Below the pieces are notes generated by a model. That model was not told the DNA's origin, ran no database searches, and saw only the letters and a list, made by a program, of their open reading frames with translations. Position numbers and translations under genes: made by a program. From Argopecten irradians (taxonomy: Eukaryota > Mollusca > Bivalvia > Pectinida > Pectinidae): a stretch of DNA of 64,000 bases. Positions 1,965 through 48,680 of this stretch are shown in pieces. The stretch covers positions 48,411,086 through 48,475,085 of the forward strand of contig NC_091135.1 of the NCBI RefSeq assembly GCF_041381155.1, written 5' to 3'. How positions within the stretch are numbered: position 1 is the stretch's first letter; each line of letters opens with the position of its first letter.

Positions 1965-3035
1965 ATGTCAACACAGTCTTCAAAGAACAATGGCGGCGTC
2001 CTTAGCAACGCACAGAAAAAATCCCGTGGAAGGCCTCCCGGCTCCAAAAATGTGTTGAAAACATCCCAAAGAGAGATGTCAACTGGCTCAAACTTCATAA
2101 CAAACTATGATTTACTGAATAACAGTGATGAAGAGGATTTGGGATGGAAATGCATTGATTGCGATAATGTATTTTCCGATCCAGAGGACAAAATGTTAGA
2201 ATGTGAACGCTGTACATCGCGTCATTGTATACGATGTCTAGGGAAATCGGAAGATGAATATAGAATCCTCCAAGATTCTGATTACATGTGGTTCTGCATG
2301 TCTTGCAGAGAGAATGTACAGAAAAACATAGCAACAGATCTGAAGATCGAGGAACGTTGCCAGGCTATTATGGAAAAATATGAGAAAAGAATAACAGCTA
2401 TGGAGGATCTGATCAAAACCAAATGTTCGCAGTCCGAGGTGCGAAATATCTTCAAAGAAATGAGAGCGTCAGAGCAGGAAAACAATATTGAATGGCCTAA
2501 AATTACTGACATCCCTCAATCCCGATCACCACCACAGGATATCAAGAATGTTTTCTCTGAGATAAACGAAAGAAAAGCTAGAGAGAGCAATATAGTGGTA
2601 TACGGTGTTCCAGAAACTGAATCTACGGACAGTAAAGGAAGGAAGGAACACGACACAGGTATTGTCTATAAAATCCTCAATAAGTGTGAAGTACATGATC
2701 TTGAAGGAAAGGTTACCAGATGTTCCAGAATTGGACAATATCATCAGAATAACAAGGAAACAAATAGGAAAAATAGACCTATGCTTGTGTCGTTGAACAA
2801 TCTTGAAACAAAAAAGAGTATTTTCAGGAACATCAAAAACTTAGGCCACGACCAGGAACTAAAAGATATAAGAATAAGCAACGATCTCACTAGGGCAGAA
2901 AGGGAACAAGAAAAACAGTTATGGGAACTGGCTAAGGAAAAAAGACAACAAAATTCCTCGGGGGAATATACCTTCAAAGTCCGAGGACCTCCCTGGGCCA
3001 GATCAGTGAAAAAAGTGAGGAAAGCAGGTTTTTAA
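1965..3035 (+). CDS. LINE ORF1 protein with PHD finger, intact
   Basis: A 356-residue open frame. After a basic N-terminus rich in S, K and R comes an AT-hook-like patch (GRPPGSK, residues 22-28). A PHD/FYVE-type zinc finger follows at about residues 61-114: CxxC in CIDC, CERC, then H and CIRC, and finally CMSC. The remainder is charged and likely coiled coil (about 115-170), followed by a region resembling the RNA-binding C-terminus of CR1 ORF1 proteins (residues about 205-345). In this family ORF1 binds the element's RNA and forms the RNP used in target-primed reverse transcription. The first ATG was chosen because the 5' UTR upstream is closed in this frame. It has no host role that I can see. 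Confidence 0.85.
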   Translation: MSTQSSKNNGGVLSNAQKKSRGRPPGSKNVLKTSQREMSTGSNFITNYDLLNNSDEEDLGWKCIDCDNVFSDPEDKMLECERCTSRHCIRCLGKSEDEYRILQDSDYMWFCMSCRENVQKNIATDLKIEERCQAIMEKYEKRITAMEDLIKTKCSQSEVRNIFKEMRASEQENNIEWPKITDIPQSRSPPQDIKNVFSEINERKARESNIVVYGVPETESTDSKGRKEHDTGIVYKILNKCEVHDLEGKVTRCSRIGQYHQNNKETNRKNRPMLVSLNNLETKKSIFRNIKNLGHDQELKDIRISNDLTRAEREQEKQLWELAKEKRQQNSSGEYTFKVRGPPWARSVKKVRKAGF

Positions 3036-3097
3036 ATGGAAACTTCAACCATGAAGATAAAGACAGAAAGCAGAGGCTTGTCGAACACCTAAATTGT

Positions 3098-5986
3098 ATG
3101 TATACTAATGCGGATCAACTAAAAAACAAAATGACAGAATTAAACATAAGAGTGAGTAACTACAAACCAGATGTAATCGGAATTACTGAAGTGAAAGCAA
3201 AAACTAGATTACAAAGTTACAAGGAATCAGAATACAGCCTAGATGGAAATGAAAATTATTCACTGTTCAGCAAGAACATTGAAACCCCTGCGGGTAGGGG
3301 GTTACTGATGTTAATAAATTCCAAGTTCATAGCAAAAGAAGTAATAATGGAAACACAGTTTCGTGAAAATCTGTTTGTAGAAATTAAAACTGGGAAAACT
3401 ACAAAACTGCTAATAGGATTGATATACAGATCGGAATCGGGAACCATGGACAACAACAAAAAATTACAAGATTTGATTGAAGAAGCCGATCAGAAAAAAC
3501 ACAACAAACTTTTGATAATGGGAGACTTTAATTATCCAAATATAAACTGGGAAACATGGAATACAAAGAGCGAGAATACAGATTCTCAAGAATACAAGTT
3601 CATTCAAAAACTCCAAGACAACTTTCTTTTCCAACATGTCCAAGAACCAACAAGATGGCGAGGTCAAGACAATCCGAATGTCCTAGATCTTATCATAAGC
3701 AAAGACGAGCATTCACTATCAGATATTGAATATCAAAGCGCTTTAGGTAAAAGTGATCACTGTGTACTACTGTTTAAGGTCATTTGTAAAGTAAAGATAG
3801 CTCTACAAAGCAAGAAGAAAAAGAGTTATAAAAATGCCAATTATGAAAGGATAAACGAGGAGATAAGTGATACCAACTGGGACGAAATAATTATGAACTC
3901 TAACAACATCAACGAGAATTGGAACACTTTCAAAAAGGTGGTCAAAGAAATAGAAGAAAGCCATGTCCCTACAAAAATCATTAAAATAGGTCGGAACAAC
4001 AAGCATAGTTTCCCAGCAGATACAACAACACTTGAAGCCATAAAAAAGAAGCATTCGTTATCAAGGAAGGCTGCAACTACAAAGGATATGAACGTGAGAA
4101 AGGAATACAATAGGGTCAGAAATAAAGTAAGGAAATTAACACGCAGATTGAGGAAAGAATATGAGCACAATATAGCGATAAAGGCAAAGTCGGATCCAAA
4201 AGCAATTTGGAATTATATAAAATCTAAATCTACGTCGAAATCAGAGATTGGAGAACTATATGCAAAACCAGCGGACAAAACTTCAACTAAAGTTACATCA
4301 AATAAGGGAAAAGCTGAAGTGTTATGTCGGTTTTTTAGCAGTGTATTCATACAGGAATCGGACACGACCCCTCATCTGTACATAAGAGAAGTCGCCGAAG
4401 AGATGTCACAAATGAATATAGAACAAGAAGCTGTATCAAAGATCCTAAAAAATCTCAAACCGGATAAATCCCCCCGGACTAGACGAACTCCACCCGATGT
4501 TCCTGAAAAACACCTCTGGTACAATATCATATCCAATAACGAAGTTATTCAACCAATCAATTTCAACAGGAACTCTCCCGGATGATTGGAAAAGGGCTCG
4601 AGTGTGTGCCATTTTCAAAAAAGGAGATAAGTGTGAACCGGGAAACTATAGGCCTGTAAGTCTCACGTCAGTTGTTTGTAAAACACTAGAAACTCTAATA
4701 AGGGATCATATAGTAACATTTATGAGGAAAAACAAGTACTTCTCCAACAAACAATACGGTTTCTTATCAGGTAGATCAACAACATTACAACTTTTAGAAG
4801 TTTTGGATAAATGGACAACTGCTTTAGATAAAGGTGACGTAGTCGATTGTATATACATGGATTATCAGAAAGCTTTTGATACAGTTCCGCACAACCGTTT
4901 ACTGAATAAATTAAACTCATATAATTTCAACCAGCAGATGAAAACTTGGATTTCATCTTTTTTGAAAGGAAGACATCAAATGGTAACAGTGAATGGCAAA
5001 AATTCCGAATGGTCAAGTGTAACATCAGGAATTCCACAAGGATCGGTTCTTGGACCCTTATTATTTGTGATATTTGTTAATGATCTTCCAGATATAGTGC
5101 AGTCAGACGTATACTTATTTGCGGATGATACTAAAAATATTCAAGGCTATCCGTGGCAAAGATGATGCTTTAGATCTGCAAAGTGATTTAGATACAATGT
5201 CGAAATGGAGTGAAACGTGGCTTCTAAAAATGCACCCAGATAAATGCAAACACATGAGGATACACAAACAGAGAACAAGAAACCAACGTGAGGAAATTAT
5301 ACAATACCAGCTCAATGGAAAAAAACACTGCAACATATAGACCAAGAAAAAGATATAGGAGTAGTTGTAGATTCCACGTTAAGCTTCGACCCCATATATC
5401 AGAGAAAGTAAAAAAAGCCAATTCCATGTTTGGACTTTTGAGAAGAACTTTTCAGTTTTTAGACATCAAATCATTTATTCCGCTATATAAATGCTTAGTT
5501 CGGTCTCATTTGGACTATGCTTGCCCCGTATGGGCGCCTTACCTACAGAAGCATATAGAAATGATAGAAAGTGTCCAAAGAAGAGCGACAAAATGTCTAC
5601 CAGGAATGTCACATCTAGCATACAGTCAAAGGCTGGAGAAACTGAAATTACCAACATTGGCATATAGAAGAATACGAGGAGACATGATAGAACTCTTCAA
5701 AATTTTAGATGGAATATATGACTCCGAATGTTGTAACATTTTATCTTTATGGAAAGATGCAACGGACCGCGAGAGCAGCAGGGGGCATAGGAGGAAGCTA
5801 TTCCATACAAGATCAAACTATGAGATTAGGAGAAACTTTTTTTCACTAAGAGCTACTAAGATATGGAACGATCTACCAGAGAATGTAGTGATGGCGCCAA
5901 ATATAAACTCCTTCAAAAATGCGTTAGACAAACATTGGAAAGAACAAGAACTCTTATACAACTACAAAGCCTTTATACATCATTAA
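3098..5986 (+). pseudogene. LINE ORF2: endonuclease plus reverse transcriptase, frameshifted
   Basis: The first frame (3098-4585) holds an APE-like endonuclease with motifs GITEVK, LLIMGDFN and ALGKSDHC, then the linker domain. The second frame (4497-5165) holds the reverse transcriptase with NYRPVSLT, MDYQKAFD, SGIPQGSVLGP and the catalytic FADDT. Frames at 5119-5340 and 5288-5986 carry the thumb and C-terminus (KMHPDKCK, YACPVWAP, ATKIWNDLP). Four length changes join these frames: the C6 run at 4470-4475, the A5 run near 5134, the A7 run at 5319-5325 and the C4 run near 5390. No other break was seen, and catalytic residues are present. Confidence 0.85.
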
Positions 5987-7987: not shown

Positions 7988-9300
7988 TATCCCCCGCCCA
8001 ACGAAGTTGGCGGGGGATATACAAATGTCCGTCCGTCCGTCCGTACGAATGGTTTCCGGAGCATAACTATAAAACCAGTAGAGATATTCCACGAAACTTC
8101 ATAGACACATTGGTCTTATGGTCTAGTAGTGCCTTTTGCTATTTTTAGGTTTTCATTTTTTGCATTTTTTCCGTAACCATGGAAACATTGCTGAAAATAT
8201 CATATTTTTGTACCAGGTTCGTTTCTGGAGCATAACTCTAAAACCAGAAGAGATATTTCCACGAAACTTCATAGACACATTGGTCTTATGGTCTAGTAGT
8301 GCCTTTTGCTATTTTAAGGTTTTCACATTTTGTACTTTTTTCTGTAACCATGGCAACATTGCTGAAAATGGCAGATTTTTGTGTAAGAATCGTTTCCGGA
8401 GCGCAACTCTAAAACCAGCAGAGATATTTCCATGAAACTTCATAGACACATTGTTCTTATGGTCTAGTAGTGCCTTTTGTTATTTTTAGGTTTTCATTTT
8501 TTGCACTTTTTCCGTAACCATGGAAACATTGCTGAAAATATCATATTTTTGTACCAGGTTCGTTTCCGCAGCATAACTGGAAAACCGGTTTAGATATATG
8601 CACTGAACTCCATAGGCACATTAGTCTTATGGTCTAGTAGTGCCTTTTGCTATTTTAAGGTTTTCACTTTTTGTACTTTTTTCTGTAACCATGGAAACAT
8701 TGCTAAAAATGGCAGATTTTTGTGTAAGAATCATTTCCGGAGCACAACTCTAAAACCAGCAGAGATATTTCCATGAAACTTCATAGACACATTGTTCTTA
8801 TGGTCCAGTAATGCTTTTTGCTATTTTTAGGTTTTCGCTTTTTGTGCTTTTTTCTGTAACCATAGAAACATTGCTGAAAATATCATATTTTTGTAGCAGG
8901 TTCATTTCCGGAGCATAACTCTAAAACCAGCAGAGATATTTCCACGAAACTTCATAGACACATTCTTTTTATGGTCTAGTAGTACCTTTTGCTATTTTAA
9001 GGTTTTCATTTTTTTCACTTTTTCTGTTACCATGGAAACATTGCTGAAAATATCATGGTAAATGGTAAATGTTATTTTGCAAAACTCCACCCATCTTTGT
9101 GTATATAGTCTAATATAAATGTCAAGGCTGTATACCTGATTCAACAATTGCAGCCCGGCTCTACTTGAATTATCCTCCATCTTTCTTTAGCTCAACTTCC
9201 TTTTTCCTGGGTTTTTTTCATACACATAAGTCTCCACAATCAAACTTACTTCAGCTTTGATATCTCCATTGGCGGGGGATCTGAATGACTATGTCCTTGT
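7988..9300 (+). mobile_element. hairpin-headed tandem-monomer element, six ~170-bp monomers
   Basis: It begins with the hairpin TTATCCCCCGCCCAAC / GTTGGCGGGGGATA, which has a 1-nt bulge, then (CCGT)n. Six monomers start near 8050, 8220, 8391, 8560, 8731 and 8902, so the period is 169-171 bp. Each opens with TTTCCGGAGCATAACT (with variants) and contains AAACTTCATAGACACATT and CCATGGAAACATTGCTG. A unique segment from about 9060 leads to GGCGGGGGATCTGAA and the terminal GTCCTTGT. Reading frames inside are by-products of the repeat. The same element, with four monomers, is at 28438-29246. Confidence 0.85.
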
Positions 9301-18439: not shown

Positions 18440-21400
18440 ATGTCTGACAGGAAACTATGCCCAAGGTACCCAACGTAATGCTACTCCACCATTCCACGCA
18501 TTCGGCACGCCCGATCGACGACGCCCCCGCAAGCGAGGGCGTTTTGACTCCACCCCTGATAGATACCGCTAGGGGTGCGAGGAGGAACTATACAGTGACT
18601 CTGACGATGAAACACCGGGACATTGTCCGAATAAAACAATCAAAGTTACATTTGTTAATGTATGTGGTGTATCATCAAAACTGAGATCACCAGAATTTGA
18701 TTTACTTATCCAATCGTACGACATATTGATTTTTGCCGAAAGTAAAATGGATGAATTTGATGTATTAGATTTACCACATGGCTATGAATATTTCTGTAAA
18801 AACAGGTCTAAAGAGGTGAAAAGAAAATCGGGTGGCATTCTTATTATATATAAAGAAGAGCTGAAAACTCATTTACAATTCCACCAAACTCCATCTGATT
18901 TTATACAGTGGATGAGATTGCCTAAAACATTAACTAATAAGGATTTTGATATACTTTTAGGTTGTGTTTACATTCCTCCTGAAAACTCGAAATATTCATC
19001 AGCCGATTGTTTTGAAGAAATTGAAAACGAAATTATTGATATTGCTGACGGTAATTGTAAATTTGCTTTTGTTGGTAACTTTAATGCCAAAACACAATGT
19101 AATAATGATTATATACAGCCTGATGATACTCTTATTGATGTTTTAGATATCAATTCTAATGATGAACTCTATAAATACTTTTATGATCTACAAAAGCTAA
19201 GTGATGCTGGTATTTCGTTACAGAGAACAAGTCAGTGTAAAGGAAGAATTAATAGTTTTGGATATAAACTTCTAGAGTTTTGTAAAAATAATAATATATT
19301 CATTGCTAATGGTCGGATTGGGAAAGACAGATTTATTGGAAAAGTTACATGTAACGAAACTAGCGTGATTGACTATCTACTACTTTCATCTGATTGTTTC
19401 AAGCACATATCTAACTTCGAAGTATTTGATTTTGACCCCTTATTTTCGGATGTTCACTGTAGACTTGAATTTTGCGTCTCAAAAAAATGGATATAGCTAG
19501 AACAAACAGAGAAGATATAGAGAACACTTCAGCAAATAATTATATAAAATGGAATAATGAAAAATTAATGGCTTATGTTAACCATATCGAAGAAGATGCG
19601 TTTGGTAGTCTTCAAGATATTATGGGAAAATTGGACAGGTTAGTAGTTAAGCCGAATGAGCTAGTCACCGCTTCTGAAATAGACAATGTTGTAAATGATT
19701 TAGGTATATTATTCAAAAATTCGGCGAAGCATATTTTTGGCGAAAAGAAAAGATCCCACCATTCATTTAGATGTAAAAAAAAGAAATAAACCTTGGTTCA
19801 CTAATGAATGTCATCTTAAAAGAATTTTATTTCACCAGGCTAAAAGATGTTATAATCAAGATAAAACTTCTACAAACAAGACTACCCTTAAGAATACTTG
19901 TAAAGAATACAGAAAAACTCTGAATAAATTTTATAGAATTCACCAAGAAAAAATGGAGAGGGAATTACGAAACGTATCCAGATCAGAGCCCAGAACATTT
20001 TGGAATATCCTCAATAAAATTGACGGAAACTAGTAAACAAAATATTATTGATAAATCCATAGAAGATTTGTATGATTATTTCAAAAATTTAAACAAGGGA
20101 GATAACTCTAATAATAGCTTTGATGGCGAAATTGTTGATGGGGTATTTGATGATTTATTAAATAACGAAATTACTGAGGATGAAATAACTTGTTCTATTG
20201 CTGGTTTAAGTAATAATAAGGCTCCAGGTCATGATGGAATTCTAAATGAATACTTAAAACCACCGCAGAAATTCTTATGCCATTATATTGTAAGATATTT
20301 AATGTCATATTTGATACGGGCTTCATTCCAAGCTCATGGAAAGTAGGGGTTATAAAACCTGTATATAAACGTAAAGGGGATCCTAACAATTTAGATAATT
20401 ATAGAGCAATAAGTCTTGTTTCTTGTCTCGGTAAAGTTTTTACATCCATATTAAATTGTAGACTAAACAAAATGGCTGATGAAATCAACTTGATAACTTC
20501 TGCCCAGGCAGGATTCAGGAAAAACCATTCTACAACTGATAATATTTTTATTCTACATGTTCTAACTTCTATCTATTTCTCACTTGGTAAAAAACTGTTC
20601 TGTTCGTTTGTTGATTTTAGAAAAGCTTTTGATTCAGTTTGGAGACTCGGTTTATGGCAAAAAGTTCAAAGAAGCAATATAACTGGGAAAATGTTTAAAG
20701 CAATAATTAATCTATATGAAAATACAAAATCCTGTGTCAAAAATGGAAATGATGTATCTGATATGTTTACTTGCAACGTCGGTGTAAAGCAAGGAGAAAA
20801 TTTGTCACCCTTCTTATTTGCTATTTTTCTTAATGATATTGAAAGTTTTTTTGAAGAGCATGGTGTCAATTGTTTGAAGAATATAAAAGATTTAGGTAAT
20901 ACTATTGGAATGTATATAAAACTATTTGTAATTCTTTATGCAGATGATACAGTTATAATGGCTGAATCAGCTAACGATCTACAGTCAGCCTTAAATAAAT
21001 TTGAAATTTATTGTGAAAATTGGAAACTTGAAGTAAACACAAATAAGACAAAAATTGTTATTTTTTCAAAGAGGAAGTCTCGAACCCGTCCTCATTTCAC
21101 ATTATTTAACAAAGAGATTGAAATTGTAGATTCGTTTTCTTATTTAGGAATATTGATGAATTATAATGGGAGTTTTCAGAAAACGAAATTGAAACTGTTG
21201 GAACAGTCAAGAAAGGCTATGTTTGCTGTTTACAAGAAAATAAGAAACATCCCTCTTCCTATTGATCTCCAGTTAAAAGTATATGATTCCCTTGTTTTAC
21301 CAATATTGATGTACTCAGTAGAAGTATGGGGCCACGAAAATATTACAGCTATAGAAAAGCTTCATTTACAGTTTTGTAAACGTATACTTGGCGTTAGGAA

Positions 21401-22262
21401 AAGTACGTGTAATTACATGGTATATGGTGAATTAGGGAGATTCCCTCACTATATAGAGGTTAAAAACAGAATTATTATGTTCTGGCACAAATTGATTACT
21501 ACTGATAATCTTTCAAGTAATATATATAAGTTGATGTTAAACTTGCAAACAAATAATATCATGGAATTCAAATGGATGCATAATGTTAAAAATATTTTTG
21601 AAGAAACTGGTTTGAATTATATATGGGACTTCCAGAATGTATGTACATATAATAGAGAATATTTAAAATCTATCGTAAAACAAAGATTACAAGATCAATT
21701 TGTACAAAAATGGTTTAATGACATAGAGAATTCATCAAGAGGTCGTACTTATTCTATTTTTAAAAGTAATTTTGAATTTGAAAAGTATCTTGTGAAACTA
21801 AAGCCAATAGATAGACAAATCATCATAAAATTCAGAACCTCGAACATGCACTTACCTATAGAAACTGGAAGATGGACTGGGACCCCTGAAGTAAATATAG
21901 AAACTTGTAATCTATGTTTTACTGATATTGGAAACGAATATCATTACTTGTTTCAATGCAGTAATGAAATGGTGAAACGTTTACGAGAAATGTATATACC
22001 AAGTTACTATTATAGAAACCATAGTGTTATCAAAATGAAAGGCCTGTTTACTATATGTAACATTACTGTTCTGACAAATATATGTAAGTTTTTGAAAAAA
22101 TTTGAAAAACTATTGATTGAGCATGTACATCACTAATACATATTGTAATAGTTGCACTGTTGCGCTATGGGCCCAATATACTTGTATGTTTATATTATGT
22201 ATAGTGACCTCCTGTTACATACTTGTATGTCTGAGAGTGAAATAAAATCTGAATCTGAAATC
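18440..22262 (+). mobile_element. second LINE (jockey superfamily, I/Nimb-like by eye), 5' truncated or ORF1-less
   Basis: Endonuclease-reverse transcriptase element with a 3' UTR, an AATAAA at about 22240 and a tail of repeated AATCTGAATCTGAAATCTG units. No ORF1 is visible upstream, so the copy is either 5' truncated near 18440 or has an unrecognised ORF1. Reverse transcriptase motifs (YRAISLVS, FVDFRKAFDS, GVKQGENLSP, YADDT) differ from those of the CR1-like LINE at 1.8-6.1 kb, so this is another clade. Clade assignment is from motif memory only. Confidence 0.8.
18600..22136 (+). pseudogene. LINE ORF2: endonuclease, reverse transcriptase and CCHC end, frameshifted
   Basis: The endonuclease runs at about 18630-19490 (TFVNVCGVSSKL, FAESKMDEFD, FVGNFNAK, SVIDYLLLSSD, FSDVHCRLEF). 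The linker is at 19490-20250. The reverse transcriptase lies in the long frame 20277-22136, with ILYADDTVIM as active site. A CCHC motif (CNLC ... H ... C, C-x2-C-x9-H-x4-C) sits near the end. Frame changes fall in A runs at 19481-19487, 19748-19751, 20027-20029 and 20256-20259; the 619-residue last frame is uninterrupted. One more change near 18630 is possible. Confidence 0.8.
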
Positions 22263-28000: not shown

Positions 28001-31000
28001 TATTCTTACTAAACTTTGACTTGGATTATATAACAAGTGATAAAAGCTAAACCTAGAGGAGTCTATATCCACGTATCTATGCACACCGGCAATATTTCTT
28101 CACGTGAATTTTACGTGAGCTGGGGCGAATAGAAAAGTGAATTTCACATGAAAGGGCGTTCAAATGAAATTCACGTTAAGAAATATTGCCTGTGTATAGC
28201 TCTATATTGGAGTTATGCATTTTGCACATTACACTGATTTAGACGAATTCATGGTCATTTCACGCAACAAATGTATAATTACCGTGCTTGATTTTGTGGG
28301 AAAGGTTTAGTCTGGCCGGAGTTTTTCTCAAGGAGACCAAACACTATGTCAATATTTCACGCACGGGATAGTTCGTTAAGAAATTTAGGCATATATACTT
28401 TTATGTCGTGAGGGAAATCCTAGTAATTATTTTCTTGTTATCCCCCGCCCAACGAAGTTGGCGGGGGATATACAAATGGGTTCCGTCCGTCCGTCCGTCT
28501 GTCCGTCCGTCCGTACGAATGGTTTCCGGAGCATAGCTCTAAAACCAGTAGAGATATTTCCACGAAACTTCATACACACATTGGTCTTATGGTCTAGTAG
28601 TGCCTTTTGCTATTTTTAGGTTTTCATTTTTTTTCATTTTTTCCGGAACCATGGAAACATTGCTGAAAATATCATATTTTTGTACCAGGTTCGTTTCCAG
28701 AGAATAACTCTAAAAACAAAAGAGATATTTCCACGAAACTTCATAGACAAATTGGTCTTATGGTCTAGTGGTGCCTTTTGCTATTTTAAGGTTTTCACTT
28801 TTTGTACTTTTTTCTGTAACCATGGAAACATTGCTAAAAATGACAGATTTTTGTGTAAGAATCGTTTCCGGAGCACAACTCTAAAACCAGCAGAGATATT
28901 TCCATGAAACTTCATACACACATTGTTCTTATGGTCTAGTAGTGCCTTTTGCTATTTTTAGGTTTTCACTTTTTGTGCTTTTTTCTGTAACCATAGAAAC
29001 ATTGCTGAAAATATCATATTTTTGTAGCAGGTTCATTTCCGGAGTATAACTCTAAAACCAGCAGAGATATTTCCACTTCATAGACACATTCATTTTATGG
29101 TCTAGTAGTACCTTTTGCTATTTTTTTGGTTTTCATTTTTTGCACTTGTTCCTAGTTTTTTTCATACACATAAGTCTCCACAATCAAACTTACTTCAGCT
29201 TTGATATCTCCATTGGCGGGGGATCTGAATGACTATGTCCTTGTTTGATATATATTATGTATGTGTTGCTGGTATTGTAATTGTCATAATCTATGATATC
29301 ATATCGGAAGTGTATTAAAATTTGAGGGACGTGGATTGCGAAACATATACTTTTAACAAATTGTTTTTTCCGGAAAATCCTTAACACTGACTATGCAGCT
29401 TAAGCTTATTACAGTTAAGGCTAAAACTATTTGTTCTATATATTAACCTGTTTAATACGACGTCCTTTATTTCACATCTAAATAGAGTCATAAACAGAAC
29501 TCTGCGACACACATCAATCCAAAGCAGTTTTGAGCAAAGGTTTATCGTCAATGTTGCTTTTGTTCATTAATGCTGTCCTTCGCGAATATATCGAAACAAA
29601 GGCCTTACAAATACTGATATTTTTTAATGCACTAACATAAATATATTTAGTCTGTAGCATGCTGTGAAGAACGAGTACAAAACCATTGTCATTTGGAAAG
29701 TTGATTATATGTACTGTCTTAAGTAATTCACGGTAATCGACTTCTTTATTCTGCCATGTGTTGGTATAAGATTCTATTGAATTGTTTTTAAAGTTGATCA
29801 CCTCTATATCGATATGTGAATGTTACATGTGTCAAATATGCTTAAACCTTTAAAAGATAACATTTTTAGTTGAACTTCGCATTTCTTTGGAAGCTCGTGT
29901 TTTCTTGTATAGTACATTTATTTAACTGTAGACCTACACACACGTGTTTTTTGTGTTTTTTTTGAGGTGATGTGTTTTGTACATTGTAAATATTTTCTTT
30001 TAAGAAAATATTTATATACGATTGTATGTGAGGATTAAAGATACATAATCGATTCTGATTTATTTTGTTAAGCCTTTTTTCTAATGCTAAATTATAATGA
30101 AGCTTTAAACACGTACATACTAATAGAATTAACAACTGTGGTAGAAATGGATAATTAACCAATATATTAACGATATACCATAGTTAATGGATATCTGTTT
30201 CAGATGACTCGGACGGCAAAAATAACGATATCCGAAAGAGAATAAAAGAGTTCCCGGAAGATGAAAAAGATGGAACTACCAAACCTACCACCGTGAAGCT
30301 CAAAAAGCAGGTTGGGCTCATCAGCGGGACTTCATTTATTGTCGGGACAGTCATTGGTAAGACTATATTAGCTCAGGACGACACTCCGTATGTTGGCTGT
30401 TAACATCACGTTTACATACAATCTTAAACTTTAATTAAGAAATATGTAAATGCAATAGCAACAGCAGTAGCTACATTAAGCATACGATTCCGTTTTATGT
30501 TTTGATCATAATTCCTGCAGCAGACACCATCGTCTTGATCTAAAATGGCAATAACGGTTAATGAATTTCATTAGTTCCCTTAATTGTTTTCATTTTTATA
30601 ATATATCTTTTAACATTAACTCTCTGGTGTGTTGGTCTACGTTGGCTCTGTTGAAACCTTCTTATCTAGCTTTACGGCGTTAAACATAACAACGCAAGTC
30701 TGATGATTATAAAGTTATTTATTTATACGATTTTTTTCTCTATCAATGGTCCTTTTTGTCGTTGATCGAATTAAGAAAGAGAAAACAAATTGTATGATAT
30801 AAACTCACTTCTTTTTTTCCAATGAGGTAGATATACAAAATGAAAAACAAACAACATTTGAATTAAATATTTTATCGTTGCAGGGTCCGGGATCTTTATC
30901 TCTCCGAAAGGTGTACTTGAAGAGACCGGGTCGGTAGCGCTGAGTCTAATCGTCTGGGCAGGAGCTGGTCTATTGGCACTGATGGGTATGTATATGTGGA

Positions 31001-41934: not shown

Positions 41935-42605
41935 CCATAGGGTATTTAGCAACCAAATACTGCAACCCAATAAGTGGTGACTGGATAGTGGGTCAACCCA
42001 ATTAGTGGTGACTGGATAGTGGGACAACCAGATGAGTGGTGACTTAATAGTGGGGCAACCAGGTTAGTGGTGACTGGATAGTGGGGCAACCAGATTAGTG
42101 GTGACTGGATATTGGGCAACCCAATTAGTGATGACTGGATAGTGGGGCCACCCAATTAGTGATGACTGGATAGTGGGGCCACCCAATTAGTGATGACTGG
42201 ATAGTGGGGCCACCCATTTAGTGATGACTGGATAGTGGGGCAACCAGATTAGTGGTGACTGGATAGTGGGGCAACCCAATTAGTGATGACTGGATAGTGG
42301 GGCCACCCATTTAGTGGTGACTGGATAGTGGGGCAACCAGATTATTGGTGACTGGATAGTGGGGCAACCCAATTAGTGATGAATGGATAGTGGGGCCAGC
42401 CAATTAGTGGTGACTGGATAGTGGGGCAACCAGATTAGTGTTGGCTGGATAGTGGGGCAACCCAATCAGTGATGAATGGATAGTGGGGCCACCCAATTAG
42501 TGGTGACTGGATAGTGGGGCCACCCAATTAGTGGTGACTGGATAGTGGGGCAACCAAAATTGTGGTGACTGGACAGTGGGACAATCCAATTAATGGTGAC
42601 TAGAT
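41935..42605. repeat. 31-bp minisatellite, about 22 units, in ligase intron 1
   Basis: Consensus AGTGGTGACTGGATAG TGGGGCAACCCAATT. Two alternating unit variants (GGGGCAACCAGATT and GGGGCCACCCAATT) are interspersed, suggesting higher-order duplication. It makes up most of the 1.1-kb first intron. Confidence 0.9.
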
Positions 42606-42759
42606 AGTATAGGGCAATCATGACAAATAGATCAGATCACACCAAAAAACCAACATAAACATGTGTATACTGGATGATTATGATTTACACAGGTGCTGTG
42701 ATTATTAGATGTTTGTTGACATCCTTTTCTAGGTAAACAATACAACCAGTGTCATCAGC

Positions 42760-45700
42760 ATGGTCAAAGATAAGTGTAAATTCTGGGAGACATGTTACAG
42801 GAAGGACCCAACACACAAGAAAAACTTTCTCCATCCTGGAGACAAAGTAGAAAAGGATGGTATGTATATAAATCAATTATCATACATGATATTATTTCAT
42901 ATCAGGTCACTCTTAACTATCAGTATAGAAATGCAAATCTGAAGTAAAAATTTCAAATGATCCGGTTTTAGTTTCAAAGATTCAGCAAAGTTCTATAATA
43001 CTCCTAGATTATCTAGCCCTATCAATAAGGGAATACTGTTGCTTTTATGGCATAAATTTCATATTCAACCACAGATAGCTAATGAAATTATGTTCTTATT
43101 TATGTAAACACCTGATTATATTTAACTGTTGTGTTTTGATACAGAGGAGGAAGATATGGAAGTAGAAGATACTATCTCCAAACCTGTTCCTCTGAGGAGG
43201 AGAAAAACACATGAGCTTAGCCAGAGTGATGGTGAAGATGATGAAGATGTAACACCACAAAAGACTCTAAAGAAATCTGACTCTAAAAAAGCTAAAAGCT
43301 CAGAGGACGAAGAAAAGCCTGGCCCATCAGGGGGAAGCAACTCTAGTGATGAGGACACTAGTAAACCTAAACCAAAGTGTGAATATTGGATAAAGTGTTA
43401 TAGGAAAGATCCTAAACACCTCAAAGACTATCGTCATCCAAAACAAAGAATAAGTTCGCGGCCAAAACCTACGCGGAAGTTAGAAGATGGAGATATTGTG
43501 AGTGTGGAGGGAGGATTTAAACTGAAGAGGATCGGGAGTGATTTCACCTGCACGTAAGTTAATCTCATTGTCTATTTTTCAAGAGGCTTTGATCATTTTT
43601 ACTGTTATCATTGAAAGAAAAAGTCAGAAAAAGTGTTTAATTGTAGGATTTTCAAACTAGCAGTGGCATAATTTTAAATGAATGATCTGATTAATTTTAA
43701 CACATGTTTTACTGTTGTCATTTCAGTTGTATTGGATGGAAGACACAAAAGAATGCTACAAACAAGCGTACTTGTAAGCACCTGAGAGAACACTTGGGCG
43801 ATGTTTATGAATCAGCAAGAATCGGACAACTTCCTGTTGCCAAGAGGAAGGCCCCAGAACCAACGCAACATTTCAAACATCTTAATGTCAGCCTGTTACT
43901 GGCTCACAAGTATGACGAAAAGTAAGTTACAACATCACATGGTATTTTACTAAACATCACAATACCTTGTTTACATGTATAACTTGCCCAAACCAGTCCA
44001 TGTCTAATCCAGAAACCTGTCCATCCCGACATAATTGAATGGCATTTTCCTACATAATCCAGACTATATTGTTACATAAAAATTACATTCTTTTCTTATG
44101 ATGTAAATTTCCTGGTCCATACAAACTAACATTTGAGGAATATTTTGGTATCTAACACAGTATTCCTTTTTCTATTGAAGAGCTACAAATCCGGTTGGGT
44201 GGTGGGTGAGCGAGAAGTTGGATGGTGTTCGGGCGTTCTGGAATGGAAAGTAAGTTACAGTAATCAGATTGGTGTTTGGTATGAAATATTTACTTCTGGT
44301 GTACTAGTATTTATTAAGCATTAAAGATGTCTAGTATACATTAAACAGTAATACATTGATGTTGATGTCCACTATCCTGTGCCAGGAGGATTACTTAAAC
44401 AAATCAATATAAACAAGCTGAGTGTCATTTACCTTGTCATGGGCCCAGTTTAATAATATTATGCTATTTATTTTTTTATTTTATTGAATTTATGTTATAT
44501 AAAAATACTTGATAAACAATAAAGAGAAACATTTTAACAATATACGCTTGATTTACAGGTGTTTCTACTCTCGACTGGGAAATCCTTTCTACGCTCCTAA
44601 GTGGTTTACCAAAGTAAGCCTTTCTTTGTTAACTAAAGACTAGACATCATTTCACTGATTTCATTTGATATTTACTCATATAAAATTTAGTATGAACATG
44701 TGTCAATCATTTTGGATAGCCAACTGAATTATAATGTTTTTAAAGCTTGGAAAAAACCTAGAAACATACATCATTACGATAATACTTTAACATTACAAGT
44801 CTTAGGTTGATAAAGATAAACTTCCTAATAAAAATATTAACTAAAACTAAATGTAGTTACCAAAAACGTTTCATACTATTTCAGTAATTTTAAATGTTTG
44901 TGTCCTAGGATCTGCCAAAAGACATGCATCTAGATGGTGAATTGTTTGGAGGAAGAAAGAAGTTTCAGTCCACTGTCAGCATTGTTAAGACTCCAGAGTG
45001 TGACAACTGGAAAAAGATTATATACTCTGTAAGTTAAGTGGTCAAATTAGCAGAGATAAAATCGCTTGAAAATATCTTATGTCTGTTGATACCAATGCAT
45101 TTAATAATTATTTTCATAATTTAGCCTTTATCATGATAAAAGTAATTGAGGTGATTCAAAATTTTGATTATTTTGCAATATCAATTTTTTATAGTCAATA
45201 TCTGTACACTTCCAAAAAATTTAAAATTTGAAAAAAATGTTCAAAACAAGTGAATATTCTCTACCTAAGATTACATTAAATAGAACGCCCAAAATTTTGT
45301 TCTGAATCTTCATTGTATGATTCCCCAGGATACACAAACCTAATCATCTTTTGTTATTTCTTGTGTATTTAGGTGTTTGATGCTCCACACATGGAGAAGG
45401 AAACATTTGAAAAGCGACAGGAAGCACTTCAAGAGTACTTTGATGAGAATGAGTAAGTACATTTACCAGGCACCACATTTAAAACCAAAATATTGATATC
45501 ACACTAGGAAAAGGGCATCCAGATACTTTTTTTTTATATATTCATTGCATAGACATTCCAGAATAAATTGGGCGTTTATTTTATATTGGAATAATTAAGT
45601 TTTTGCACCCTACCTGCCCCACCTCAGAAAAATCTTGTGAGCTTACAGAGGCTTTTTGAAAACATCCTGTTATTGATTCATTTAATAGTGCTGAAATAAA

Positions 45701-46723
45701 ATTCATAATGTATTGTAAATGTATTATTACAGACCCCAGTATGCAGAACTTGTGAAACAGTCCAAATGTACAAGTAAACAACAGTTGGATGAAGATCTGA
45801 AAAAAATCATCGCCCTTGGTGGGGAGGGACTCATGATTCGGGAACCAAAATCTAAATATGAAAGACGGAGGTCAAAAACACTGCTCAAGTTAAAGAAGTT
45901 CTATGATGCTGAGGTGAGTCAGAGAACATACCTGTATATGGTGCCATAATTTAGGACAAATGCTTTTCCAGATTAATAAGCAGGGTTCAGGTTGTTTCGA
46001 CAATTGACTGAAGTCTTGAAACAGCTTCTTTTCAATAAATAAGAGGCCCAGAGATGTAATATTGAAATAGAATATCATTCTAGTAGCTGGTGGCTACCTC
46101 ATTTGATGACACTCTGAGGTCAGTTAATCTGATACAACGTTTCTCATGACAGATTACTGGACAAAACTATTGTAATCAAATCAAAAGGATAATGAAATTA
46201 AACTAAATTATTAAGATTTTATCTGAGAAGGCTTCACATTATTGATTTTGTTTTCTTTAGGCTGTTGTCATTGGTTACGACCCTGGCAAAGGTCGTTTTA
46301 CTGGAGCTGTGGGAGCCTTAAGGTGCAAGATGGAGTGTGGCAAAATCTTTTCTGTTGGGTCTGGGTAAGTACATTAAATCCAGATATCTATTTAGATATT
46401 TAAATTGTAACAAATTGTCCATAAATATCACCTTTTAGTTATTTACAATATTTTTTCGTTAAAATTGTTGAAATGTTCATTTTTCGTATACTTCATAGAT
46501 TGTTTTTAAATTATTAGAAATTGAAAAAGACTTTTTTTCCCTTTCTTACAGACTGACAGACAAAGACCACAGAAGACCACCTAAGATCGGGTCTATAATA
46601 ACATACAAATTCCAGGAGTATACTAACTCGGGTAGTCCACGTTTCCCCACGTTTTTGGGTGTAAGAATTGACGCCACAAAACCAAAGGATGCAGAGGTAC
46701 CAGTGACTGCGGCTGATGAATGA
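42760..46723 (+). CDS. PBZ-PBZ-SWIM-LigE-type ATP-dependent DNA ligase, 10 coding exons
   Basis: Coding exons 42760-42859, 43145-43553, 43727-43921, 44181-44249, 44559-44613, 44909-45028, 45373-45452, 45733-45913, 46261-46364, 46552-46723; phases agree, giving 494 aa. The N-terminus has two PBZ fingers (C6, C12, H19, H25 and C112, C118, H125, H131, each with CYRKDP) joined by an acidic, Ser-rich linker with KR-rich patches. PBZ fingers bind poly(ADP-ribose). A SWIM finger follows (C169-x-C171, C186-x-H188). The ligase core has motif I EKLDG with the adenylated Lys247, III DGELF (285-289), IIIa FDAP (318-321), IV EGLMI (374-378) and V LKLKK (394-398), then an OB fold (VGALRCK, PPKIGSIITYK, FPTFLGVR). 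The core is short, lacks the N-terminal DNA-binding domain of Lig1/3/4 and resembles bacterial LigE. Inferred role: nick sealing at PAR-marked breaks, nuclear. No organelle signal seen. Confidence 0.92.
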
Positions 46724-47729: not shown

Positions 47730-48680
47730 GCGATGTTATATCTTTATATTTACAGTATGTGTATAGAGCGATGTTATATCTTTATATTTACAGTATGTGT
47801 ATAGAGCGATGTTATATCTTTATATTTACAGTATGTGTATAGAGTGATGTTATATCTTTATATTTACTGTATGTGTATAGAGTGATGTTATATCTTTATA
47901 TTTACGGTATGTGTATAGAGAGTGATGTTATATCTTTATATTTACTGTATGTGTATAGAGTTGTTATATTCTTTATATTTACGGTATGTGTATAGAGTGA
48001 TGTTATATCTTTATATTTACGGTATGTGTATAGAGTGATGTTATATCTTTATATTTACGTATGTGTATAGAGTTGTTATATCTTTATATTTACAGTATGT
48101 GTATAGAGATGTTATATCTTTATATTTACAGTATGTGTATAGAGATGTTATATCTTTATATTTACAGTATGTGTATAGAGTGATGTTATATCTTTATATT
48201 TACAGTATGTGTATAGAGTGATGTTATATCTTTATATTTACTGTATGTGTAGATGTTATTTTTATTTAGTATGTGTATGATGTTATATCTTTATATTTAC
48301 AGTATTGTATAGAGATGTTATATCTTTATATTTACAGTATGTGTATAGAGTGATGTTATATCTTTATATTTACTGTATGTGTATAGAGTGATGTTATTCT
48401 TTATATTTACAGTATGTGTATAGAGATGTTATATCTTTATATTTACAGTATGTGTATAGAGTGATGTTATATCTTTATATTTACTGTATGTGTATAGAGT
48501 GATGTTATATTCTTTATATTTACGTATGTGTATAGAGAGATGTTATATCTTTATATTTACTGTATGTGTATAGAGGTGTTATATCTTTATATTTACTGTA
48601 TGTGTATAGAGTTGTTATATCTTTATATTTACTGTATGTGTATAGAGTTGTTATATTCTTTATATTTACGGTATGTGCCA
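47730..48680. repeat. 38-bp minisatellite, about 25 units
   Basis: Unit GATGTTATATCTTTATA TTTACAGTATGTGTATAGAGT, very homogeneous with small 1-4 nt indels. It lies 1 kb downstream of the ligase stop. Open frames on both strands follow from the repeat. Confidence 0.9.

Follow-up and report, generated by a model that had tools for sequence, protein, structure and literature searches.

Introduction

Sealing of DNA nicks linked to poly(ADP-ribose) (PAR) is carried out in animals by LIG3-XRCC1. The recruitment of this pair by PAR has been described (PMC4030884), and a minimal ligase of the Ligase K/Lig E family that carries PBZ fingers has been reported from several animals. The PBZ module usually stands N-terminal of the LigK core, with domain models given for Lottia, Aplysia and Capitella, and follows the core in the bdelloid LigK (PMC6264785); LigE was also recorded in Saccoglossus, Lottia, Biomphalaria and Capitella, with an N-terminal PBZ in three animals (PMC10665377). 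The bdelloid LigE-B is a radiation-induced, nuclear and active ligase, whose expression raises the radio-tolerance of human cells (PMC10665377), and LigE ranks with the most strongly induced bdelloid genes following desiccation and radiation (PMC10809525). In Dictyostelium, PBZ is fused to several repair proteins, including Ku70 (PMC5087659), and in bacteria the leaderless Myxococcales LigE (cluster c) have been grouped with a small number of eukaryotic sequences, most of them fungal (PMC8455567). Here we describe a PBZ-bearing LigE gene with a further, SWIM-like finger at positions 42760 to 46723 of a 64,000-nucleotide window (the whole stretch of DNA analysed: contig NC_091135.1, positions 48,411,086 to 48,475,085 of the forward strand, assembly GCF_041381155.1) of the bivalve Argopecten irradians.

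The PBZ-LigE kind is already known in animals, and the idea of such a ligase, put forward in the earlier note on this DNA, had been anticipated by the animal LigE/LigK with N-terminal PBZ of PMC6264785 and PMC10665377. A literature search for animal PBZ-LigE gave nothing beyond these two and the other papers cited here, and one for SWIM with ligase gave no paper on a SWIM-ligase fusion among the matches listed. The word SWIM does not occur in the main text of PMC6264785, PMC10665377, PMC8455567 or PMC6144786, the figures of which could show it. As far as the literature search shows, two points are new: that the third finger comes from bacterial SWIM-LigE, and that PBZ-LigE is accompanied in this genome by a ligase set.

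The single-copy gene quite probably encodes a Lig E ligase of a SWIM-bearing bacterial subtype, with two PBZ fingers added in eukaryotes, which is recruited by PAR to seal nicks beside the other ligases; the PAR binding, the nick sealing, the role in nuclear repair and the horizontal origin are what we infer from the sequence. The features on which this reading is built are as follows.

42760..46723, + strand: PBZ-PBZ-SWIM-LigE gene, 10 coding exons, 494 aa, stop codon 46721-46723 (in-phase splice, nine GT-AG introns; Pfam, NCBIfam)
42775..42837, + strand: PBZ finger 1, residues 6-26, with C6, C12, H19, H25 and F8, Y13, R14 (Pfam zf-CCHH; also matched in the whole-genome family search)
43378..43443, + strand: PBZ finger 2, residues 112-133, with C112, C118, H125, H131 and Y114, Y119, R120 (Pfam zf-CCHH, best stretch 109-133)
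43471..43832, + strand, split by the intron 43554-43726: SWIM-like finger, residues 143-205, with C169, C171, C186, H188 (bacterial SWIM-LigE profile; co-linear in bacterial LigE)
43881..45913, + strand: adenylation domain, residues 222-403, exons 3-8 (DNA_ligase_A_M at 239-397; PRK09125 over residues 218-478)
44215..44217, + strand: codon of Lys247, the nucleophilic lysine in EKLDG (position computed; role by homology to Lig E)
46261..46672, + strand: Lig E-type OB fold, residues 404-478, exons 9-10 (DNA_ligase_OB_2, 97 bits, residues 411-476)

Gene structure and identity of the ligase core

The ten coding exons (42760-42859, 43145-43553, 43727-43921, 44181-44249, 44559-44613, 44909-45028, 45373-45452, 45733-45913, 46261-46364 and 46552-46723), which the earlier note had read as splicing in phase to a protein of 494 residues, were joined computationally across nine GT...AG introns and do give an open reading frame of 494 codons plus stop, with a GC content of 43% in the coding exons against 28% in the introns. 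The modules share exons: exon 2 carries the second PBZ finger and the first part of the SWIM finger, which is completed in exon 3, where the core also begins. The acceptor-like sequence CTTTTCTAG ends 27 bases 5' of the ATG, which makes an upstream exon, perhaps of the 5' untranslated region, likely; no such exon was found.

Judged by its profile scores, the core is of the Lig E family and not of the Lig1/3/4 type. The NCBIfam equivalog NF006592/PRK09125, which was taken as the Lig E model (cut-off 200 bits), scores 320 bits over residues 218-478, and the dnl1 model only 38.7 bits (cut-off 217.8). The Pfam matches are DNA_ligase_A_M (4.8e-13) and DNA_ligase_OB_2 (PF14743, 6.3e-28), with neither the N-terminal domain PF04675 nor the OB domain PF04679 reported by Pfam in the window protein at E <= 1. 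The top PDB matches are Lig E chains (4d05 at 3.7e-57, 8u6x at 1.7e-55 and 6gdr at 7e-47), followed by chlorella-virus-type and similar minimal ligases at 3.2e-10 and weaker and by DNA ligase 4 at 0.011; no DNA ligase 1 or 3 by name is present among the best 60 of the 66 PDB matches. A core of the Lig1/3/4 type is ruled out by these Pfam, PDB and NCBIfam scores, that is, by profiles and not by a tree. The ligase motifs stand in order, with EKLDG at 246 (Lys247), DGEL at 285, FDAP at 318, GEGLMI at 373 and LKLKK at 394, the last four of which we take to be the named motifs of ligases. Thus, the description in the earlier note of a LigE-like core with Lys247 in EKLDG, the later motifs and an OB fold, lacking the DNA-binding domain of Lig1/3/4, is confirmed. 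Leader-type Lig E is defined by a leader peptide and the lack of an appended domain; in the window protein, two PBZ fingers and the SWIM-like finger precede the core.

PBZ fingers

The zf-CCHH (PBZ) family was found in two stretches of the window protein (E 8.6e-19), with the family score above the Pfam cut-off, and in the genome-wide search each of the two fingers is individually above the cut-off; together with the Cys and His ligands this agrees with the two fingers named in the earlier note. The region of the second finger (residues 96-132) also gave a phmmer match to the APLF structures 2kqb/2kuo at 2.9e-8. Both fingers retain the zinc ligands as well as the aromatic and Arg positions of PAR contact. 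They follow the PBZ consensus printed in PMC4030884 in the Cys, the His, the aromatic residue that follows the first Cys, and the two adjoining basic residues, and their residues F8/Y13/R14 and Y114/Y119/R120 correspond, by motif alignment, to the ADP-ribose-contacting positions of APLF given in PMC6264785. The linker between them (residues 34-108) is acidic, with Asp or Glu at 22 of the 75 positions. A PBZ-like pattern by which both fingers are recovered from the window protein was absent from all 156 bacterial and viral open reading frames read, and hence the PBZ fingers look like a later, eukaryotic addition to SWIM-LigE.

SWIM finger in bacteria and viruses

The SWIM-like finger of the window protein scored 60.8 bits (E 4.7e-18 for 1001 sequences) with a profile of 79 bacterial LigE proteins, the best of 1000 shuffles reaching 11.5 bits, and 49.9 bits with a profile of 12 viral proteins. 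By the former score the protein has the mark of the SWIM-LigE subtype, a CxCxxW...RTCKH finger shortly before the core, and the finger noticed earlier is borne out by the profile match at residues 143-205. We take C169-x-C171...C186-x-H188 to be a SWIM finger from the pattern CxCxnCxH.

The bacterial genome scan returned the best 80 of at least 544 relatives, and SWIM precedes the LigE core in all 80 loci (79 plus L068), a count that is biased because the query itself contained the SWIM finger and only the best-ranked rows were returned. The finger typically has the form C-S/T-C-P-A-W-R-N-Q-S...R-T-C-K-H and stands shortly before the ligase core. Samples of two phyla, each including the genome at its centre, were searched with the core family alone: LigE was found in 38 of the 146 genomes of Myxococcota (the phylum of L019, Myxococcus), with SWIM in each of the 30 best-scoring loci, and in 5 of the 149 genomes of Planctomycetota (the phylum of L053, Blastopirellula), all five with SWIM. 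According to the genome scan, SWIM-LigE is spread over several bacterial phyla. An AlphaFold2 model of one bacterial relative (L018) has a predicted local distance difference test (pLDDT) score of about 90 in the SWIM module, about 50-60 in the linker and above 90 in most of the core, and its four best Foldseek matches are Lig E structures.

From the viral scan 80 of 113 relatives were retained, two of which (L104 and L175) were not readable; SWIM was recognized by motif in 13 loci (12 plus L164), whose contigs range from 20 to 527 kb in length, and 65 loci have LigE cores without it. The match to a 485-kb uncultured phage record covered 95% of the SWIM-plus-core query with an identity of 38%, and a viral scan with SWIM only as the query gave 19 stretches and no relative. 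Giant eukaryotic viruses as carriers of SWIM-LigE are not supported: the capsid of nucleocytoplasmic large DNA viruses was matched in none of the 14 records behind viral loci matching over or near SWIM, a weak negative as the control also matched nowhere, and in none of five further viral records with an equally weak control, and a terminase was matched in 4 of the 14, one above the cut-off, as in tailed phages.

Since SWIM precedes the LigE core in the bacterial relatives, the finger, as judged from this shared arrangement, is an inherited bacterial part of LigE and not a eukaryotic add-on. The suggestion in the earlier note that the ligase gained its recruitment domains in eukaryotes is therefore supported for PBZ, which was absent from the bacterial and viral reading frames, and not for SWIM, which already stands before LigE in bacteria and on some large viral contigs.

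Trees and origin

For the trees, the 79 bacterial rows were reduced to 25 and the viral rows without SWIM to 9, two long viral rows were dropped from the core-only tree, and both trees consist of LigE rows, with the window protein as the one eukaryotic member. In the tree that includes SWIM (49 rows), a starred branch (95/91) splits two leader-type Lig E from the rest, the animal included, with a long-branch warning. In the core-only set (47 rows), the blastp identity of the animal core is up to 54% with SWIM-LigE and 41-42% with the two leader-type Lig E. By column identity L110 was nearest (51%), but the additional length that precedes its core looks like read-through ahead of a phage ligase. 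A SWIM-LigE was also seen on a contig titled as a Klebsiella pneumoniae metagenome-assembled genome (L080), which adjoins rows of Obscuribacterales and Planctomycetes without starred support; its species label may be wrong.

An ancient horizontal acquisition of animal LigE, the published view, is plausible, and we infer it here as well. A more specific proposal is tentative, with a chance that we put slightly short of even: SWIM-LigE would be an unrecognised LigE subfamily, found in Myxococcota, Planctomycetota, some other bacterial phyla and a number of huge phages, in which SWIM is inherited and binds DNA or a partner. Animals such as Argopecten irradians would have taken up this form and grafted PBZ onto its N-terminal side, independently of bdelloids and Mortierella. 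If so, PAR-guided LigE was invented at least twice, from different stocks.

Several results weigh against the bacterial SWIM-LigE reading of this gene or against its PAR-linked role. In neither tree is the long animal branch placed with starred support; phage LigE without SWIM are nearly as close to the animal core, at 42-49% blastp identity; and in the approximately unbiased (AU) test, joining the animal core to the two leader-type Lig E was not rejected (p 0.356), so that the link with SWIM-LigE is better argued from the SWIM finger that both have than from the trees. The Pfam SWIM model itself was reported neither in the window protein (E <= 1) nor in seven bacterial and viral relatives (E <= 0.1), and in both PBZ fingers the G of the consensus in PMC4030884 is replaced by W.

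Unlikely, though with the best claim among the alternatives, is an old eukaryotic LigE/LigK that descended vertically and was lost from most animals, instead of a transfer into animals. The scatter of LigK/LigE over fungi, protists and some animals (PMC6264785, PMC10665377) and the long residence indicated by nine introns agree with such a history, which would fit the same proposed mechanism; the presence of SWIM-LigE across several bacterial phyla and the LigE transfers inferred in PMC10665377 speak for a transfer and do not decide the animal case.

Proposed function and host genome context

In the preferred reading of a PAR-recruited SWIM-LigE, PARPs would make PAR at breaks, where both PBZ fingers would bind it and hold the ligase, with the acidic linker between them giving reach; the SWIM finger on its flexible tether would contact DNA or a partner, and the compact core would charge Lys247 with adenosine monophosphate and seal the nick. 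The enzyme, perhaps a stress-tolerance ligase, would act alongside LIG1, LIG3-XRCC1 and LIG4. Because Lig E needs no extra DNA-binding domain to bind nicked DNA (PMC6144786), SWIM may not be essential and may instead raise the affinity or bring in a partner.

An active ligase whose main work lies elsewhere than in PAR-guided nuclear repair, such as in organelle DNA or other DNA joining, with PBZ binding another ligand, is improbable in our judgement. The change of G to W in both fingers would suit it, as would the predicted periplasmic location of the leader-type Lig E in bacteria (PMC6144786), by which the Lig E family is not tied to chromosome repair; both fingers, however, keep the zinc ligands and the aromatic and arginine contact positions, and the bdelloid PBZ-LigE-B is nuclear and radiation-induced (PMC10665377).

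The ligase gene is the only locus found with PF14743 in the 846-Mb genome and lies on a chromosome-scale contig of 73 Mb, with exons of AMP-binding, amino-acid permease and FAM192A genes around it. Contamination by a bacterial contig is ruled out by the nine introns, the exons of the neighbouring genes (one of the ten stretches tried being without a Pfam match) and the 73-Mb contig. The same genome contains exons of LIG1, of LIG4 and of LIG3, the last with zf-PARP and with an OB exon matching the DNA ligase 3 structure 3l2p at 1.7e-52, and 22 matches of the PARP catalytic family. XRCC1_N exons lie far apart on one contig, at C9:13012526-13013568 and C9:30972127-30975067, possibly in two XRCC1-type genes. 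With exons of LIG1, LIG3 and LIG4 in the genome, PBZ-SWIM-LigE is best read as an addition to the full ligase set. That it instead stands in for XRCC1-LIG3, with PBZ and SWIM both gained after the transfer, as the earlier note had proposed, is highly improbable, for although PBZ could replace the XRCC1-mediated PAR recruitment and all the modules lie within one protein, the LIG1, LIG3, LIG4, XRCC1_N (at two places) and PARP exons are present in the same genome and SWIM was already in bacterial LigE.

In C1:21117733-21132208 (L183, L178 and L179), exons of LIG3 (zf-PARP, core and OB) are followed by one for PBZ at 21132131, in the same orientation and some 3 kb past the OB exon, which suggests that the LIG3 of Argopecten irradians carries a PBZ finger of its own. 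A tandem repeat with a 171-bp unit is present at two places in the window (8043-9056 and 28522-29147), and a closely similar translated stretch, judged by eye, is located in the LIG3 region, on C1 from about 21127068; the repeat is probably an interspersed element. Minisatellites flank the ligase gene at window 41962-42608 (20.9 copies of a 31-bp unit, stopping some 150 bp short of the ATG) and at 47734-48677 (period 38 x 25.8, about 1 kb past the stop). Elements resembling long interspersed nuclear elements occupy 2936-5162 (endonuclease and reverse transcriptase matches) and 20250-22133 (reverse transcriptase).

Comparison with known systems

The window protein has the LigE core and the N-terminal PBZ of the published animal Ligase K/Lig E, and differs from the main-text accounts of these proteins in having SWIM; the animals from which LigE/LigK is reported include Lottia, Aplysia, Biomphalaria, Capitella and Saccoglossus. 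Like the bdelloid AvLigE-A/B and the Mortierella MvLigE, it combines a LigE core with PBZ and is a proposed DNA-damage ligase; in those proteins, however, PBZ is C-terminal to the core (the bdelloid proteins having PST-rich repeats and an N-terminal core), in contrast to the order PBZ-PBZ-SWIM-core found here. The leaderless Myxococcales LigE (cluster c of PMC8455567) are of the same family, and the LigE of the sampled Myxococcota share the SWIM module; unlike the window protein, they have no PBZ. Leader-type Lig E (4d05 of Psychromonas, 8u6x of Neisseria, and 6gdr) has the same catalytic core and fold, with 41-42% identity for 4d05 and 8u6x, while its PDB chains of 258-297 residues were matched over the core only, with no SWIM or PBZ match. 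Compared with LIG3-XRCC1, the PAR-linked sealing is alike, as predicted for the window ligase, and LIG3 differs in its OB family and in zf-PARP.

A published but little-studied animal LigE is in this way linked to a specific bacterial form, SWIM-LigE. The SWIM finger may help to trace the donor and to tell separate acquisitions apart, and it likely gives a ligase that is commonly called minimal a module for binding DNA or a partner. The animal keeps PBZ-LigE beside LIG3 and XRCC1-type genes, and, with a PBZ exon also near LIG3, the recruitment of ligases by PAR may occur more than once within one repair system.

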